Positions 3,382 to 10,544 of a stretch of 17,845 nt of DNA are shown in pieces. A program made the translations under genes and the position numbers. Origin of the DNA: Oscillospiraceae bacterium. Its GTDB lineage: Bacteria; Bacillota_A; Clostridia; Oscillospirales; Oscillospiraceae. The stretch covers positions 1-17,845 of the forward strand of contig JAGBAI010000057.1 in NCBI GenBank assembly GCA_017939025.1. The letters run 5' to 3'. The notes beneath the pieces are model-generated. The model saw nothing but the letters and a program-made list of their open reading frames with translations. It ran no database searches and was not told the origin of the DNA. The stretch's first letter is position 1; every line of letters begins with the position of its first letter.

Positions 3382-3432
3382 ACAATAGAATTATTATGGA
3401 TAATTATGCTTTGCTAGGTAGGTAAGAATAAA

Positions 3433-5427
3433 ATGGCAAAAAAGAAGCAAGAACAATACGGAAATTCCAGTATCTCCATGCTCAAGGGTGAGGACCGGGT
3501 GCGTAAGCGTCCTGCGGTCATCTTCGGCTCTGACGATCTGGAGGGCTGTAAGCACGCGGTGTTTGAGATCCTCTCCAACGCCATCGACGAAGCCCGGGAG
3601 GGCCACGGCGATACCATCCTCGTCACCCGCTACGAGGATTTATCTGTGGAAGTGGAGGACTTCGGCCGGGGCTGTCCCGTGGATTATAACGAAAAGGAAA
3701 AGCGCTACAACTGGGAGCTGGTTTTCTGCGAAATGTACGCAGGTGGCAAGTATGGCGAAAACGGCGAAAACTACGAATATTCCCTGGGTCTGAACGGCCT
3801 GGGCTCCTGTGCCACCCAGTACGCTTCGGAATATTTTGATGCTACCATCCGCCGGGATGGGTTCCGGTACGATCTGCACTTTGAAAAGGGCCGGAACGTC
3901 GGCGGGCTGAAAAAAGAAGCGGCTGACCGGAAAAAAACCGGCTCCTGCTTCCGCTGGCGGCCGGACAAGGAAGTGTTCACCGACATCAACATTCCCGTGG
4001 AATATTACCGGGATGTGCTGCGCCGGCAGGCGGTGGTGAATAAGGGCATCCGCTTCAAGTTCCGCAACCAGGTGGGCCGGAAATTTGAGGAAGAGGAATA
4101 TTGCTATGAGGACGGTATCCGTCAGTATATTGAGGAAATGGTGGGAGATAACGCCTTCACCATGCCCGCCTACTGGGAGACGGAGCGCCGTGGCCGGGAT
4201 GCGGAAAACCGCCCGGAAATGAAATTAAAAATCACGGCCGCATTCTGTTTCAGTAAGCAGGTCAGCCACATCGAGTATTACCACAACTCCTCCTGGCTGG
4301 AATACGGCGGCAGCCCCGACCGGGCCGTGCGCCTGGGCTTTACCGCGGCATTTGACAAGTATTTAAGGGACAATAATAAATATACCAAAAATGAGTCGAA
4401 GATCATCTATCAGGATATTCAGGATTCTCTGGTGATGGTCACCAACTGCTTCTCCACCATCGGCTGTTTTGAGAACCAGACCAAAAAGTCGGTCAATTCC
4501 AAGTTCACCCAAGAGGCCATGACCGCTTTCTTTAAGGAACAGCTGCAGGTCTGGTTCATTGAAAATGCCCAGGAGGCGGCTAAGGCTGCGGAGCAGATCC
4601 TGGTGAACAAGCGGGCCAGAGAGTCTGCGGAAAAGACCAAAAGCAATGTGAAGAAAAAGCTCTCCGGCTCCATTGACATTGCCAACCGGGTGCAGAAATT
4701 TGTGGATTGCCGTACCCGGGATACCTCCCTGCGGGAGCTGTATATCGTGGAGGGCGACTCCGCATTGGGAAGCGTCAAGTTTGCCCGGGACGCAGAATTC
4801 CAGGGAATCATGCCCGTTCGCGGCAAGATCCTCAACTGTCTGAAAGCAGACTATACCAAGATCTTTGCGTCTCCCATCATTACGGATCTGATGAAGGTTC
4901 TGGGCTGTGGTGTAGAGGTTCAGGGAAAGAAGGCCAAGGAGCTTTCTTCCTTTGATATTGATAACCTCCGCTGGAACAAGGTCATCATCTGTACCGACGC
5001 AGACGTGGACGGCTTCCAGATCCGCACGCTGATCCTGACTATGCTCTACCGGCTGTGTCCGACGCTCATTCGGGATGGTTACGTCTACATCGCCGAATCT
5101 CCGCTTTTTGAGATCACGTACAAGGAAAAAAATAAGGAAATGACCCAGTTTGCCTACAACGAGGCGGAAAAGGTTCAGATCCTGAAATCTTTGCAGGGAA
5201 AAAAGGTGGATATCCAGCGCTCCAAGGGCTTAGGTGAGAACACCAAGGAAATGATGTGGATGACCACCATGAATCCGGAAACCCGCCGTCTCATCAAAGT
5301 CATGCCGGAGGACGCGGAGCGGACTGCCATGTATTTTGACATCCTGCTGGGCGATGCGCTGCAGGAAAGAAAGAATTTCATTGCGGAGAACGGTGCGAAA
5401 TATCTGGAACTGGCAGATATTTCTTAA
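3433..5427 (+). CDS. parE: Type IIA topoisomerase ATPase/TOPRIM subunit, divergent ParE/GyrB-like
   Basis: A 664-residue GyrB/ParE homologue. Its GHKL ATPase domain (about 35-210) keeps the catalytic glutamate E45 and N49 in EILSNAIDEA, D76 in DFGRG and the LNGLGS loop (120-125). A transducer domain follows with the QTK lysine loop (349-351). The TOPRIM domain has EGDSALG (440-446) and DADVDG (522-527), then SKGLGE (597-602) and TTMNPETR (611-618). It would supply ATP hydrolysis and the DNA-cleavage metal site to the ParC-like subunit downstream. It differs from canonical GyrB at usually fixed places: DFGRGCPVD instead of DNGRGIPVD, DGFQI instead of DG[AS]HI, and QRSKGLGE instead of QRYKGLGE. 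The topoisomerase IV role is inferred from the partner lacking a GyrA-box; the symbol is by role only. An AGGTAGG-like site precedes the start at 3433. Confidence 0.9.
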   Translation: MAKKKQEQYGNSSISMLKGEDRVRKRPAVIFGSDDLEGCKHAVFEILSNAIDEAREGHGDTILVTRYEDLSVEVEDFGRGCPVDYNEKEKRYNWELVFCEMYAGGKYGENGENYEYSLGLNGLGSCATQYASEYFDATIRRDGFRYDLHFEKGRNVGGLKKEAADRKKTGSCFRWRPDKEVFTDINIPVEYYRDVLRRQAVVNKGIRFKFRNQVGRKFEEEEYCYEDGIRQYIEEMVGDNAFTMPAYWETERRGRDAENRPEMKLKITAAFCFSKQVSHIEYYHNSSWLEYGGSPDRAVRLGFTAAFDKYLRDNNKYTKNESKIIYQDIQDSLVMVTNCFSTIGCFENQTKKSVNSKFTQEAMTAFFKEQLQVWFIENAQEAAKAAEQILVNKRARESAEKTKSNVKKKLSGSIDIANRVQKFVDCRTRDTSLRELYIVEGDSALGSVKFARDAEFQGIMPVRGKILNCLKADYTKIFASPIITDLMKVLGCGVEVQGKKAKELSSFDIDNLRWNKVIICTDADVDGFQIRTLILTMLYRLCPTLIRDGYVYIAESPLFEITYKEKNKEMTQFAYNEAEKVQILKSLQGKKVDIQRSKGLGENTKEMMWMTTMNPETRRLIKVMPEDAERTAMYFDILLGDALQERKNFIAENGAKYLELADIS

Positions 5428-5432
5428 AAATG

Positions 5433-5479
5433 CCTTCCCCTTTGGGGAAGGTGGCACGGCGAAGCCGTGACGGATGAGG
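5433..5479. repeat. Left inverted-repeat end of the DUF559 cassette (two hairpins)
   Basis: CCTTCCCC (5433-5440) pairs with GGGGAAGG (5444-5451) around TTT. A second hairpin, CACGGC (5455-5460) with GCCGTG (5464-5469), follows, then CGGATGAGG (5471-5479). The same order of parts appears inverted at 5904-5944, beyond the DUF559 gene. It begins 6 bases after the ParE-like stop and could act as an attenuator in the operon. Confidence 0.8.
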
Positions 5480-5525
5480 GCGGTACACGGCCCGATCCAG
5501 CACAAGGGAAAGGCGAAGAGGAACC

Positions 5526-5879
5526 ATGCGGTATAACTCGAAGCTAACACCCAGAGCGCAGAAGCTGCGCCGGGAAATGACCAAGGAAGAGCGCAGACTA
5601 TGGTATGAATATCTCAGAACATACCCACATACCTTTCGCAGGCAGGTGGCATTTGGCAACTATATTCTGGATTTTTACTGTGCTGCGGCAAAGCTGGCGA
5701 TAGAGCTGGATGGCTCCCAGCACTATGAGGAGCAGGGACTTCGGCATGATATGTATCGGGATATGTATCTGAACAGCATTGGAATCTATGTGCTGCACTT
5801 TTCTAATACGGATGTTTTACAGAATTTGCGCGGTGTTTGTCAAGTGATTGACATGACAGTTGCGCAGAGAATCAGGTAA
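5526..5879 (+). CDS. DUF559 endonuclease-domain protein (Vsr-like PD-(D/E)XK fold)
   Basis: A 117-residue protein of the DUF559 family, related to very-short-patch-repair and other restriction-like nucleases. The N-terminal LRREMTKEERRLWYEYLR (14-31), then FRRQVAFGNYILDFYC (37-52) and AIELDGSQH (58-66), give the metal-binding D49 and the E60-x-D62 pair of the fold. The C-terminal part with GIYVLHFSNTDVLQN is also typical. The substrate of DUF559 proteins is not established; nicking or mismatch repair activity is only inferred from the fold. It begins 98 bp after the ParE-like gene, behind a GAGGA site, and is enclosed by inverted hairpin repeats. Codon choice and base composition look more AT-rich than its neighbours by eye, which fits insertion from elsewhere. 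Whether it is active, or the repeats are its targets, is unknown. Confidence 0.88.
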   Translation: MRYNSKLTPRAQKLRREMTKEERRLWYEYLRTYPHTFRRQVAFGNYILDFYCAAAKLAIELDGSQHYEEQGLRHDMYRDMYLNSIGIYVLHFSNTDVLQNLRGVCQVIDMTVAQRIR

Positions 5880-5882
5880 AAA

Positions 5883-5944
5883 CCATTCCCTTCGGGAATG
5901 GAACCTCACCCGCCCCTGCGGGGCACCCTCCTCAAAGGGGAGGG
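5883..5944. repeat. Right inverted-repeat end of the DUF559 cassette (three hairpins)
   Basis: Three hairpins follow the DUF559 stop. CCATTCCC (5883-5890) pairs with GGGAATGG (5894-5901), GCCCC (5912-5916) with GGGGC (5920-5924), and CCCTCCTC (5926-5933) with GGGGAGGG (5937-5944). Read on the minus strand from 5944, the outer hairpin, the GGTG step, the inner hairpin and CGGGTGAGG match the left end at 5433-5479 in order. It ends 9 bases before the ribosome binding site of the ParC-like gene. Confidence 0.78.
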
Positions 5945-5966
5945 CACTATTGCAAAGGAGCCAACT

Positions 5967-8216
5967 ATGGCACGAAAAAAGAAGGAACCGGAAAAGAATC
6001 AGAAGAATATTGACACCGACGGCATCGTCGGTCTGGTGGGCGGCACCTCAGAACAGGCGATTTCCGAAACGCTGGAAATCAACTACATGCCCTATGCCAT
6101 GTCCGTCATCGTTTCCCGTGCGATTCCGGAAATCGACGGATTCAAGCCTTCCCACCGGAAACTGCTCTACACCATGTATAAAATGGGTCTGCTCACCGGA
6201 AAGCGGACTAAATCTGCCAATATTGTTGGCCAGACCATGAAGCTCAATCCCCATGGCGACGCGGCAATCTATGAAACTATGGTGCGCCTGGCCCGGGACA
6301 ATGAGACCCTGCTGCATCCCTTCGTGGATTCCAAGGGTAACTTCGGTAAAGTCTATTCCCGGGATACGGCCTACGCCGCTTCCCGTTATACAGAGGCCAA
6401 GCTGGAAAGCATCTGCAGCGAACTGTTCCGGGATATCGACAGTGACACTGTAGACATGGTGGATAACTATGATGCCACCATGAAGGAACCGGCATTGCTG
6501 CCTACCACCTATCCCAATGTGCTGGTGTCTGCCAACCAGGGCATTGCCGTTGGTATGGCTTCCAACATCTGCTCTTTTAACTTGAAAGAGGTCTGTGAAA
6601 CCACCATCGCCCTTATGAAAAATCCCGACCACGATGTTCTGGAGACCCTGCCCGGCCCGGATTTTTCCACCGGTGCAGAGCTGCTTTTTGATGAGGCAAC
6701 TACCAGGGAGATCTATAACACCGGCCGGGGAAGCTTTAAGCTTCGGGCGAAGTGGCGCTATGTCAAGGACGGCAACCTCATTGAAATTACCCAGATCCCC
6801 TATTCCACCACCACCGAGGTCATTATGGACAAGGTGGCAGAGCTGATCAAGGCCGGTAAGATCAAGGAAATCGCTGATATGCGTGATGAGACTGATTTAG
6901 GAGGTCTGAAGCTGACCATTGACCTGAAGCGGGGTGTGGATGCCGATAAGCTGATGCAGAAGCTCTATCGGATGACACCCCTGCAGGACAGCTTCCCCTG
7001 CAACTTCAATATTCTGATCGCCGGTATGCCCCGGGTCATGGGCGTTGGTGAGATCCTGAATGAGTGGACGGCCTGGCGGACTGACTGCATCAAGCGCAGA
7101 CTGTTCTTTCAGATCGGCAGGAAGGAGGATCGGCTGCATCTGCTGAAGGGTCTGGAACGGATCCTGCTGGACATTGACAAGGCCATCCGGGTCATCCGGG
7201 AAACGGAGCAGGAAGCGGAGGTCGTGCCCAATCTGATGATCGAATTCGGCATCGACGAGATCCAGGCAAATTATGTTGCGGAGATCAAGCTGCGCAACAT
7301 CAATAAGGAATACATCCTCAAGCAGACCAAAGCAATCTCTCAGCTGGAGGAGGAGATCGAGGATCTGCGTTCTACCCTCAATTCCTCCCGGAAACTGAAA
7401 AATGTTATCATCAAAGAGCTGCAGGCTGTCTCTGACAAATTCGGTCAGGAGCGCAAGACCGAGATCATCTATGATGTCCAGGAAGCTGCTCCTGAGGAAG
7501 AAGAGGATCCCATCCCGGATTATCCTGTCACCGTCTTTGTCTCCAAAGAGGGCTACATGAAGAAGATCACCGCCCAGTCCCTGCGGATGAGCGGTGAGCA
7601 GAAGTTCAAAGAGGGCGACAGCCTGCTGTTTACCAGAGAAGCTACCAACAAGGCGGAATTCCTGGTGTTTACCGACAAATTCCAGTGCTATAAGTCAAGA
7701 CTTTCTGACTTTGATGATGGTAAGGCGTCCCTTTTGGGTGACTACCTGCCTCAGAAGCTGGGCTTTGAGCCGGGAGAGAATATCGTTTCACTGATCTTCT
7801 GCGGAGATTATAAGGGCTTTATTCTGTTCTTCTTTGAAAACGGTAAGGTGGCCAAGGTGCCGCTCAGTGCCTACGAGACAAAAACCAACCGACGCAAGCT
7901 TACCGGTGCTTACTCGGATAAGAGTCCTCTGGTGAAGGCGGTAGCGCTGGATGCGGATGAGCAGATGGCAGTATACGCTTCCGATGGCCGGGCTGCCATT
8001 TTCTCCACAGCCCAGCTGCTGCCCAAAACCACCCGAAATACCCAGGGTGTTTCTGTCTTGACTTTGAAAAAGAAAGCGACCCTGCAAAATGCCCTGCTGC
8101 TGAGCGAAAGCGGCATCACAAACGAAAGCCGTTACCGCAGCAAAACAATCCCTTCTGCCGGTGCCCTGTTAAAGGAAGAGGACTCGGCGGAGAAGCAGCA
8201 GAGTTTTGATGTCTGA
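5967..8216 (+). CDS. parC: Type IIA topoisomerase DNA-cleavage subunit, ParC/GyrA-like
   Basis: A 749-residue GyrA/ParC homologue that would form the heterotetramer with the ParE-like subunit and cut DNA through a transient tyrosine linkage. The breakage-reunion domain (about 35-495) has the active-site Y141 in ASRYTE, the HGDAAIYE helix (96-103) and the tower and coiled-coil region with an EEEIEDLRSTL stretch (461-471). The C-terminal part (about 518-700) is a reduced beta-pinwheel with repeats such as FVSKEGYMKKI and FFENGKVAKVPL. No GyrA-box (QRRGGKG) is seen, so a decatenase (topoisomerase IV) rather than gyrase role is likely. Ala99 occupies the position of quinolone-resistance residue Ser83 of E. 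coli GyrA. The start at 5967 has AAAGGAG 6 bases upstream; an in-frame ATG at 5898 lies inside the repeat and is rejected. Confidence 0.92.
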   Translation: MARKKKEPEKNQKNIDTDGIVGLVGGTSEQAISETLEINYMPYAMSVIVSRAIPEIDGFKPSHRKLLYTMYKMGLLTGKRTKSANIVGQTMKLNPHGDAAIYETMVRLARDNETLLHPFVDSKGNFGKVYSRDTAYAASRYTEAKLESICSELFRDIDSDTVDMVDNYDATMKEPALLPTTYPNVLVSANQGIAVGMASNICSFNLKEVCETTIALMKNPDHDVLETLPGPDFSTGAELLFDEATTREIYNTGRGSFKLRAKWRYVKDGNLIEITQIPYSTTTEVIMDKVAELIKAGKIKEIADMRDETDLGGLKLTIDLKRGVDADKLMQKLYRMTPLQDSFPCNFNILIAGMPRVMGVGEILNEWTAWRTDCIKRRLFFQIGRKEDRLHLLKGLERILLDIDKAIRVIRETEQEAEVVPNLMIEFGIDEIQANYVAEIKLRNINKEYILKQTKAISQLEEEIEDLRSTLNSSRKLKNVIIKELQAVSDKFGQERKTEIIYDVQEAAPEEEEDPIPDYPVTVFVSKEGYMKKITAQSLRMSGEQKFKEGDSLLFTREATNKAEFLVFTDKFQCYKSRLSDFDDGKASLLGDYLPQKLGFEPGENIVSLIFCGDYKGFILFFFENGKVAKVPLSAYETKTNRRKLTGAYSDKSPLVKAVALDADEQMAVYASDGRAAIFSTAQLLPKTTRNTQGVSVLTLKKKATLQNALLLSESGITNESRYRSKTIPSAGALLKEEDSAEKQQSFDV

Positions 8217-8244
8217 TGGCTGTGGCATGCCGAAAGGAGCCGAT

Positions 8245-9108
8245 ATGAAGGAACTTTGGAACCAATACCGATGGATTCCTGTAACTGCTTTTGGCAGTGC
8301 TGTGTTTTCCGCAGGCTTTGCCTTTTTCCTCCAGCCCAACGATATGAGCCCCGGCGGGATCTCCGGTCTGGCACTGGTGGCAGTGGAACTGCTGGGTTTT
8401 GGCAGTGTGGGTCTGTTTTCCATTCTGATCAATCTGCCCCTGTTTGCCCTGGGCGGCCTGAAGATAGGAAAGAAGTTCTTTGCAGGCTCTGCTTTGGGAA
8501 TGTTTCTCAGCTCACTGCTCATCGATCTTTTTGCAACAATGGATTTTCCGGCTGTGGAGCCGCTGCTGGGTGTGCTGTATGGCGGCACCATCTGCGGTGT
8601 GGGGCTGGGGATCGTCTTTGTCTGCGGCACTTCAACAGGCGGATCGGATATTCTGGTGCGCTTATTAAAGCTGCGGTACCGGAATGTGCCCATTGGACAG
8701 ATATCCATTTGCTTTGACGCAGTGGTGGTGCTTTTGACGGGACTGGTGTTCCGGGATGTAAATAAAGCACTGTACACCGGCATTACAGCGGTTCTGTGCG
8801 GCAAGCTGGTGGATGCGGTAGTGTACCGCTTCGATTATTCCAAGGTAGCGCTGATCATCTCCCGGGAGCATGAGAAGATTGCCCGGGAAATCGGATTGCG
8901 GCTGGACCGTGGTGCCACCTTCCTGCAGGGGGAGGGAAGCTATTCCGGCCAGCAGACAAAGGTCATACTGACAGCTGTGAAGCGGCAGCAGGTGGCGGAA
9001 TTGAAGGAACTGGTCATGTCCACCGATCCCAATGCCTTTGTTATCGTACAGGAGGCCCACCAGGTGCTGGGCGACGGCTTCAGCCGGTACAACAAACATG
9101 ACTTATAG
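8245..9108 (+). CDS. YitT family membrane protein with C-terminal DUF2179 domain
   Basis: A 287-residue protein with five or six hydrophobic segments between about residues 10 and 195 and a soluble C-terminal DUF2179 domain (about 200-275). The paired glycine-rich motifs SPGGISGL (35-42) and GTSTGGSDILVRLL (128-141) are diagnostic of the YitT family. VALIISREHEKIAREI opens the DUF2179 domain, which is probably cytoplasmic. The transported or sensed compound is unknown for this family. The start at 8245 has a GAAAGGAG site. It lies 28 bp after the ParC-like stop and 10 bp before the lipoprotein gene, so it is likely co-transcribed with both. Nothing links its job to DNA topology. Confidence 0.92.
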   Translation: MKELWNQYRWIPVTAFGSAVFSAGFAFFLQPNDMSPGGISGLALVAVELLGFGSVGLFSILINLPLFALGGLKIGKKFFAGSALGMFLSSLLIDLFATMDFPAVEPLLGVLYGGTICGVGLGIVFVCGTSTGGSDILVRLLKLRYRNVPIGQISICFDAVVVLLTGLVFRDVNKALYTGITAVLCGKLVDAVVYRFDYSKVALIISREHEKIAREIGLRLDRGATFLQGEGSYSGQQTKVILTAVKRQQVAELKELVMSTDPNAFVIVQEAHQVLGDGFSRYNKHDL

Positions 9109-10307: not shown

Positions 10308-10383
10308 GCGGGTGTAGCTCATCCGGTAGAGCGCCACCTTGCCAAGGTGGAGGTAGCGAGTTCGAGCCTCGTCACCCGCTCCA
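10308..10383 (+). tRNA. tRNA-Gly (anticodon GCC)
   Basis: A complete 76-base cloverleaf. The acceptor stem is GCGGGTG with CACCCGC. The D-arm is AGCTC...GAGC. The anticodon stem is CCACC with GGTGG around loop TTGCCAA, with anticodon GCC at 10341-10343. The T-arm contains TTCGAGC. The discriminator base is T and CCA is encoded at 10381-10383. It reads GGC and GGT glycine codons. The encoded CCA is also the first base-paired part of the terminator stem that follows. Confidence 0.97.
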
Positions 10384-10391
10384 AAAAAGAA
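10363..10391 (+). repeat. 29-bp direct repeat, copy 1 (3' end of tRNA-Gly)
   Basis: These 29 bases cover the T-loop end, the T-stem and acceptor 3' strands, CCA and the first bases of the terminator. They are identical to 10516-10544. Duplication of a tRNA 3' end is the usual mark of site-specific integration, or of loss of a tandem tRNA copy. Confidence 0.9.
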
Positions 10392-10515: not shown

Positions 10516-10544
10516 CGAGCCTCGTCACCCGCTCCAAAAAAGAA
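10516..10544 (+). pseudogene. tRNA-Gly 3'-end remnant (29-bp direct repeat, copy 2)
   Basis: It is identical to 10363-10391 over 29 bases, including the T-stem and acceptor 3' strands and CCA. Upstream there is no D-arm or anticodon arm, so it cannot be a working tRNA. It leads directly into another strong hairpin terminator, as the intact gene does. It could be the leftover of a second tandem tRNA-Gly gene, or an attachment-site scar. Confidence 0.8.

Follow-up and report, generated by a model that had tools for sequence, protein, structure and literature searches.

A DUF559 nuclease cassette at a parE-parC junction and the association of DUF559 genes with triplex-type repeats

The window analysed here is a stretch of 17,845 nucleotides from an Oscillospiraceae bacterium (contig JAGBAI010000057.1), probably a relative of Faecousia. 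An earlier note on this DNA had described a DUF559 gene between inverted two-hairpin ends at the parE-parC junction. This is borne out by a match to PF04480 and by an inverted match between positions 5426-5458 and 5919-5951 (79% complementary), and we can confirm that the cassette is real. Its parts, those of the two ends obtained by end parsing, and the neighbouring genes are as follows:

3433..5427, + strand: parE-type topoisomerase B subunit (gyrase-B/ParE-type), the upstream host gene (ORF list and Pfam)
5433..5451, + strand: left end, outer hairpin CCTTCCCC-TTT-GGGGAAGG (pyrimidine arm, purine arm)
5452, + strand: left end, connector T
5453..5471, + strand: left end, inner hairpin GGCACGGC-GAA-GCCGTGAC
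5472..5479, + strand: left end, tail GGATGAGG, mirror of the outer purine arm and candidate third strand, with one departure from the code
5526..5879, + strand: gene of a DUF559 / PD-(D/E)XK Vsr-like nuclease, 117 aa (PF04480)
5904..5911, - strand: right end, tail GGGTGAGG
5912..5924, - strand: right end, inner hairpin GCCCCGCAGGGGC
5925, - strand: right end, connector T
5926..5944, - strand: right end, outer hairpin, worn (6 clean pairs)
5898..8216, + strand: ORF of the parC-type topoisomerase A subunit; its first ATG (5898) falls inside the cassette and the likely true start is the ATG at 5967, after the cassette

Each end is more than the two hairpins of the earlier note, which did not point out that the purine tail is a mirror repeat of the outer arm. 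At the left end we find the order of a class II triplex motif (pyrimidine arm, purine arm, mirror purine third strand) with one departure, and the connector T and the inner hairpin (5452..5471) occupy the place of the 3-nt second loop in the published E. coli triplex motif. Relative to the left end, A is replaced by G in both the purine arm and the tail of the right end, at positions that mirror each other. A strict motif scan detects the left end only, the right end being too worn. When we searched the window for the left outer hairpin followed by TGGC, allowing up to three mismatches, we found two matches, one at the left end (no mismatches) and one at 8914-8936 (three mismatches), and none in 200 shuffles.

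Between the nuclease gene and the right end there is an extra small hairpin, CCATTCCC-TTCG-GGAATGG (5876-5905), with a sub-threshold Rfam match to CRISPR-DR63 (28.9 of 37 bits). No Rfam family exceeded its gathering score in positions 3400-8300 of the window or in 13 loci, where all matches were sub-threshold, and a known RNA element was rejected on these grounds. A defence system was rejected as well, PADLOC giving two weak and partial matches. Elsewhere in the window, a 29-nt inverted repeat of another intergenic palindrome type (TCGTAGGGGGCGATGCCC.., 93% complementary) lies at 287-363, and a perfect 29-nt direct repeat (10363-10391 / 10516-10544) covers the 3' part of a tRNA-Gly (10308-10383) and recurs 153 bp downstream.

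The ORF at 5526-5879 matches PF04480 with E 1.4e-28 and 99.3 bits against a curated cut-off of 20.6; its other Pfam match, MTES_1575, is below the cut-off of that family. In an alignment of 28 sequences from four phyla 13 residues are invariant, among them E22, D49, E60, D62 and H66, all present in the window protein, which we infer to be PD-(D/E)XK-like catalytic residues. A profile of the 28 homologs matches PDB 3hrl (E 2e-34) and, as remote homology over the domain, PDB 3r3p, a 'mobile intron protein' (E 3.8e-5) which we take to be I-Bth0305I of the EDxHD family. Of 18 pairs 13 were measurable, and in these omega lies between 0.05 and 0.16, one pair being near saturation, which points to strong purifying selection. 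As for related proteins, the available text of PMC12907096 states that VsrA contains a DUF559 domain and that a Caulobacter DUF559 protein causes an SOS response when a methyltransferase is missing, and that of PMC1189080 that a YcjD profile detects Vsr.

To count DUF559 genes at the level of genomes we used the genomes of relatives. PF04480 has 29 matches, spread over seven of eight such genomes with up to six copies in each; two of the matches are fragments of other proteins. The flanks of these genes are built to one plan, in which the arm sequences differ and the inner hairpins are interchangeable. Several inner hairpins, among them CACGGC-GAA-GCCGTG, CAGTGCGCACACTG and AAAATCTTTGATTTT, are seen again with other outer arms (L081-L109 and other places), which looks like an exchange between families. 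For quantification, the upstream flank was aligned locally with the reverse-complemented downstream flank and a score of 16 was taken as the cut-off. This score is reached by 23 of 30 DUF559 matches (the 29 and the window); the control ORFs, taken from the parE loci, reach it in 3 of 574 cases. With a cut-off of 14 the numbers are 24/30 and 11/574. The window's own flank pair, at 15.5, is narrowly under 16. In the wider set of family and class loci, where 2 of 83 matches were left unscored, 56 of the 81 scored matches reach 16, or 51 of 76 after removal of five duplicates, with the window included in the 76. Genes elsewhere that lack these ends, with the repeat widespread apart from them, would, according to the earlier note, speak against mobility; most genes have them (51/76), and 25 of the 76 distinct Clostridia genes, the window narrowly included, have no inverted flanks above the cut-off. 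Several of the latter adjoin a gene-less pair instead (by eye). In 1.2 Mb of clostridial contigs, inward-facing motifs flank 10 of 19 DUF559 genes; for comparison, they flank 9 of 308 gap-matched ORFs and 11 of 879 control ORFs.

Next, we analysed the relationship between arm and tail. With an end parser that is blind to the tail and requires the first arm to be pyrimidine-rich, we obtained 370 ends from 2.45 Mb (151 per Mb, some loci overlapping so that some ends are counted twice) and 1 end from 0.42 Mb of order-1 resampled sequence. The 332 ends with a T connector gave 110 distinct arm/tail rows. Across these rows, the mutual information between arm and tail peaks on the mirror diagonal at 7 of 8 positions, the exception being position 2, which is nearly always G; at position 1 it amounts to 0.89, with a permutation maximum of 0.11. 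The rule G-G, A-A, A-T, C-T is satisfied in 631 of 757 cells when the tail is read as a mirror, compared with 61% in direct reading, 45-52% when shifted by one or two, and at most 60% for permuted tails; since the rows are related, the permutation result is not a probability. C with T (48 rows) and G with G (47 rows) dominate position 1, and the main departures are G with A at positions 6 (33 rows) and 5 (13 rows). The pattern is seen in several arm families, and in most of them position 1 occurs in either state, C-T or G-G.

In the purine motif, T on C-G is a tolerated triad. The purine-motif intrastrand triplex code itself, as given in the available text of PMC4666352, places A or T on AT and G on GC. 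On the level of sequence, the arm/tail substitutions are thus those predicted by this code plus T on C-G. The mirror tail might instead serve a G-quadruplex or a repeat that is read by a protein, which would leave the link to the nuclease unaffected. Arm and tail do hold several G-runs in the commonest families, but quadruplexes do not need the matching of A with A/T and of C with T on the mirror diagonal, and the related motif with a 3-nt loop (TM-ECO) forms a triplex in vitro (PMC4666352, available text), so that we find this alternative distinctly unlikely. The same text reports in vivo footprinting that gave no support for a stable triplex.

As relatives we took the best 80 loci from a ParE scan, several of them Candidatus Faecousia and the others mostly Oscillospiraceae, Clostridia or Clostridiales MAGs; 79 of these best 80 junctions were readable, and their contents were sorted by eye from the sequence. 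Five of the 79 carry the DUF559 cassette (L004, L007, L024, L038, L060), three carry the ends without the gene (L031, L047 and, in part, L014), 17 have other repeat-like inserts, one has an unrelated gene, and 53 have no larger insert. The earlier note had proposed comparing orthologous junctions with and without the cassette: junctions without a larger insert are frequent, but a clean empty junction was not found among the sites compared. Nor did we see, by eye, a target-site duplication at parE-parC or at one E. coli boxC site. The right end can be read in seven other loci and is followed by ATTA in all of them (by eye; in L014 it comes after another insert), and by ACTA in the window. The junction copy of L007 (L098) has an in-frame stop.

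The six junction nucleases, that is the window and the five relatives, form one clade (support 99/99), and the cassette is scattered on the ParE tree, where six carriers need six changes. Synonymous sites of the junction DUF559 genes are saturated (pS 0.79-0.99), whereas parE is not (dS 0.81-1.30). The junction copies are therefore more diverged at synonymous sites than parE, which argues against recent lateral copying. The simplest reading is that the window copy probably goes back to a single old insertion, inherited vertically and lost repeatedly, in most descendants. The earlier note had regarded presence at the same junction in all relatives with vertical descent as evidence against mobility; the copies look vertical, yet they are confined to 5 of the 79 relatives.

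A recent jump or homing into the junction, the latter suggested in the earlier note, was rejected on account of the synonymous divergence, the single clade and the one shared site. More generally, the nuclease could be a selfish homing-type endonuclease that cuts cassette-free alleles and is copied in by homologous repair, the repeats only marking safe intergenic sites. Such an enzyme would fit the profile homology to 3r3p and the one site common to six species. This homology is remote, however, there is no intron here, lateral copying into the same site is not what the saturated DUF559 sites and the parE dS values indicate, and gene-less pairs, mirror code and the match of nuclease and end family (see below) would be left unexplained. 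We therefore consider homing improbable as a general explanation.

The parE-parC junction is a hot spot: the 17 other inserts, of the TGTCATTGCGA.., TTGACAGTTGACAAT.., GTAGGGCGGGGTCATGACC.. types and others, lie straight after the parE stop (by eye). An inverted repeat with 45-bp arms at 1917-2021 of the window starts with TGTCATTGCGAACCAGT; 14 of the 283 loci examined contain this start, five of these at parE-parC.

In the clostridial contigs (1.2 Mb), 43 motif pairs are no more than 250 bp apart, and 33 of them are inverted with their tails facing inward. An A-type (G/G) end is paired with a B-type (C/T) end in 24 of 32 inverted pairs of the hairpin type. Since gene-less inverted pairs with such ends are common, the anatomy is that of an autonomous element with miniatures, as in RAYT/REP. 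Assembly G148 has an 800-bp unit in duplicate; the two copies are 91% identical and their flanks are unrelated. The end sequences of this unit are also found on their own in G120, G148, G171 and, in shorter form, in G139. Note that the unit reaches about 140 and 200 bp past its ends, so that these may not be its outer limits, and that the genomes are partly metagenome assemblies, where strain mixing is possible. Among 61 family genomes, 13 have a complete or almost complete DUF559 gene, and 12 of these contain ends of the two main families, compared with 11 of the 48 others (Fisher 8e-6, two genomes with fragment matches only being scored as DUF559-less). The minimal mobile unit proposed in the earlier note thus stands in part. 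The same ends at other genes (51/76), the gene-less units and the 53 of 79 junctions without a larger insert agree with it, but the parE-parC copy itself is old and vertical.

Both ends could be parsed in 27 of 78 distinct genes, and in 21 of the 27 both ends share an arm core. A nuclease tree was built from the 56 sequences with at least one parsed and classed end; the downstream end, or else the upstream one, served as label, and close variants were lumped. End family changes 11 times on this tree, compared with a mean of 28 for shuffled labels, and none of 200 shuffles was as low; near-copies add to the clustering in this test. Two of the six end families are not significantly clustered, CCCCCT (47/500 shuffles as low) and CTCCCC (500/500). 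Paralogs within G001, G003, G005 and G006 bear different end families, matching their own clade. In Clostridia, nuclease clade tracks end family, even among the paralogs of one genome. At one gene junction, L085 (G006) and L095 (G005) have DUF559 genes of two clades and two end families; the sister genes of L085 (L081, L084) adjoin a dnaJ-like gene, from which we conclude by eye that relocation or replacement has happened. Two neighbours are presumably genes of a SEC-C motif protein and of DnaJ.

DUF559 could also be a host maintenance nuclease that resolves or trims triplexes and hairpins, with selection keeping the enzyme near the repeats and the repeats spreading by other means. The strong purifying selection (omega 0.05-0.16 in 13/18 pairs), the old inheritance at parE-parC and the DNA-damage setting in which the Caulobacter protein acts (PMC12907096, available text) are what one would expect from such an enzyme. 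On the other hand, an enzyme acting in trans need not sit inside inverted ends, its clades need not match the ends of their own flanks, and there are up to six copies per genome. We consider this explanation unlikely.

To extend the comparison, we searched plasmid records with the window protein (tblastn); 25 of 38 records were used and 13 dropped, mostly species repeats or partial matches. Outside Clostridia, a class II motif lies within 300 bp of 22 of 25 DUF559 loci, compared with 35 of 218 control ORFs, and motifs lie on both sides in 11/25 and 2/218, respectively. The three loci without a motif within 300 bp come from Sphingobium, one Sphingomonas and Novosphingobium. Among gap-matched controls (gaps of at least 60 bp on both sides), 17 of 66 have a motif and 1 of 66 has motifs on both sides. 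Of the 218 control ORFs, 213 come from the eleven 30-kb loci; for these eleven, each with its own 30-kb controls, the numbers are 8/11 against 33/213 for a motif and 4/11 against 1/213 for both sides. The second loop outside Clostridia is mostly parsed as 3-5 nt (3 nt in the published motif), and Shinella has the clostridial hairpin form. Pair orientation varies: the pairs of Clostridia and four pairs of E. coli have their tails inward, those of Deinococcus and Sinorhizobium have them outward.

Across the sampled loci, the pairing of DUF559 and motif spans Clostridia, Proteobacteria, Deinococcota and Cyanobacteria. The association of DUF559 genes with repeats of the triplex code is shown by several independent controls and is wider than what the earlier note had observed. 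That note had offered a common intergenic repeat, flanking the gene by chance, as one explanation; the controls reject it (23/30 against 3/574, 11/25 against 2/218, 10/19 against 9/308). A related possibility is that of an insertion bias only, where DUF559 genes and repeats gather in tolerant intergenic gaps without interacting. It is true that the parE-parC gap holds other repeat-like inserts in 17 of 79 species (by eye), and that gap-rich controls have more motifs than controls overall. But the gap-matched controls still differ (both sides 11/25 against 1/66; inward pair 10/19 against 9/308), and clade predicts end family among the paralogs of one genome. Insertion bias alone is disfavoured already, and we regard it as very improbable.

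In each of two E. coli chromosomes ycjD is the sole DUF559 gene, and 2 of 11 and 1 of 27 exact TM-ECO matches, respectively, lie within about 250 bp of it. The motif scan finds motifs on one side of ycjD only, and for the reversed TM-ECO pattern the two chromosomes gave none. For counts in E. coli we used a spread of 60 records, dropping one that was plasmid-like, and took matches to a ycjD-boxC query as boxC-like places. Their median is 17 (10-25) in 37 records with ycjD and 4 in 22 records without it (p 2e-9), a difference that is confounded by lineage. The records without ycjD are split into 14 with 2-5 and 8 with 11-16 such places. Strains without ycjD were rejected as clean empty sites: in three of them a TetR-type gene adjoins fabI instead, because in E. 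coli ycjD alternates with the eefRABCD operon (PMC12817139, available text). At hrpB-mrcB, about 100 bp are missing in 13 of 39 chromosomes among the matches listed. In the one such chromosome compared, the boxC pair is absent and the flanks differ too, which makes insertion and deletion indistinguishable. In L279, another boxC locus of E. coli, the records lacking the unit mostly matched one flank only.

Taken together, we think that the cassette in the window belongs to a widespread pairing of DUF559 nucleases with intrastrand-triplex repeats, and that fold-specific nicking disperses the repeats; judging from sequence, we would give this a probability of roughly 0.6. When one strand is exposed, on the lagging strand or during repair, an end would fold into a hairpin with a third strand. 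The cognate DUF559 nuclease would recognise this fold and nick at the tail or next to it. Copying or strand transfer would then spread the full cassette and, in trans, the gene-less pairs, such as boxC/PIT in E. coli, in a way similar to that proposed for RAYT transposases and REPs. A broader claim, to which we would give somewhat less than even odds, is that DUF559 and intrastrand-triplex repeats might constitute a pan-bacterial class of mobile elements read via a three-stranded DNA fold, with boxC/PIT as non-autonomous members and YcjD as their mobiliser.

E. coli has been known since the 1990s to contain triplex-forming repeats, called boxC, and many other bacteria were later found to have such repeats; we know of no enzyme that spreads them. 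DUF559 enzymes may be the missing partners of this class. Like boxC/PIT/TM-ECO (PMC4666352, available text), the clostridial ends have the class II order, are intergenic and multicopy and occur in inverted pairs too, and E. coli ycjD adjoins canonical copies. They differ in having a T and a modular hairpin in place of the 3-nt second loop, as well as several arm sequences; the window, whose second loop is a T and a 19-nt hairpin, departs from the published consensus. Furthermore, a DUF559 gene lies beside the motif here, whereas the available text of PMC4666352 reports that no mobility gene was found near TM-ECO. In open-access titles and abstract openings, among the matches listed, we found no published link of DUF559/YcjD to boxC, PIT or other repeats.

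The second comparison is with RAYT (TnpA-REP) and REP/REPIN, where the REPIN side is partly general background. Here as there, a nuclease gene lies by its own hairpin repeats, there are gene-less miniature pairs and clade-specific repeats, and the spread is intergenic (PMC8266576, available text); for DUF559 as a class, the inverted repeats that flank the gene also occur gene-less. The predicted enzyme is different, a PD-(D/E)XK Vsr-like protein and no HUH tyrosine nuclease, and the ends bear a mirror tail. With the DUF559/YcjD/VsrA nucleases (PMC1189080, PMC12907096, available text) the window protein shares the family; the same text describes no repeat partner.

A nuclease family that adjoins such repeats in four phyla, and in Clostridia has ends matching its clades, is a candidate for the spreading enzyme. 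At the same time DUF559, a family of unknown function in Pfam, gains a candidate substrate, and the question can be tested in E. coli K-12. Should it be the fold that is read, nature would offer here an example of a dedicated enzyme recognising three-stranded DNA.

Some loci outside Clostridia have unusual surroundings. In Deinococcus, DUF559 genes are found at three different points of hpa catabolic operons (L239, L245, L253), on the opposite strand and each by triplex motifs. In L237 and L257, DUF559 genes or domains lie beside or inside BREX genes. Finally, Pseudanabaena galeata has a DUF559 domain within a 1621-residue ORF; triplex motifs flank the domain on either side, and the arrangement looks like an in-frame insertion of a cassette.
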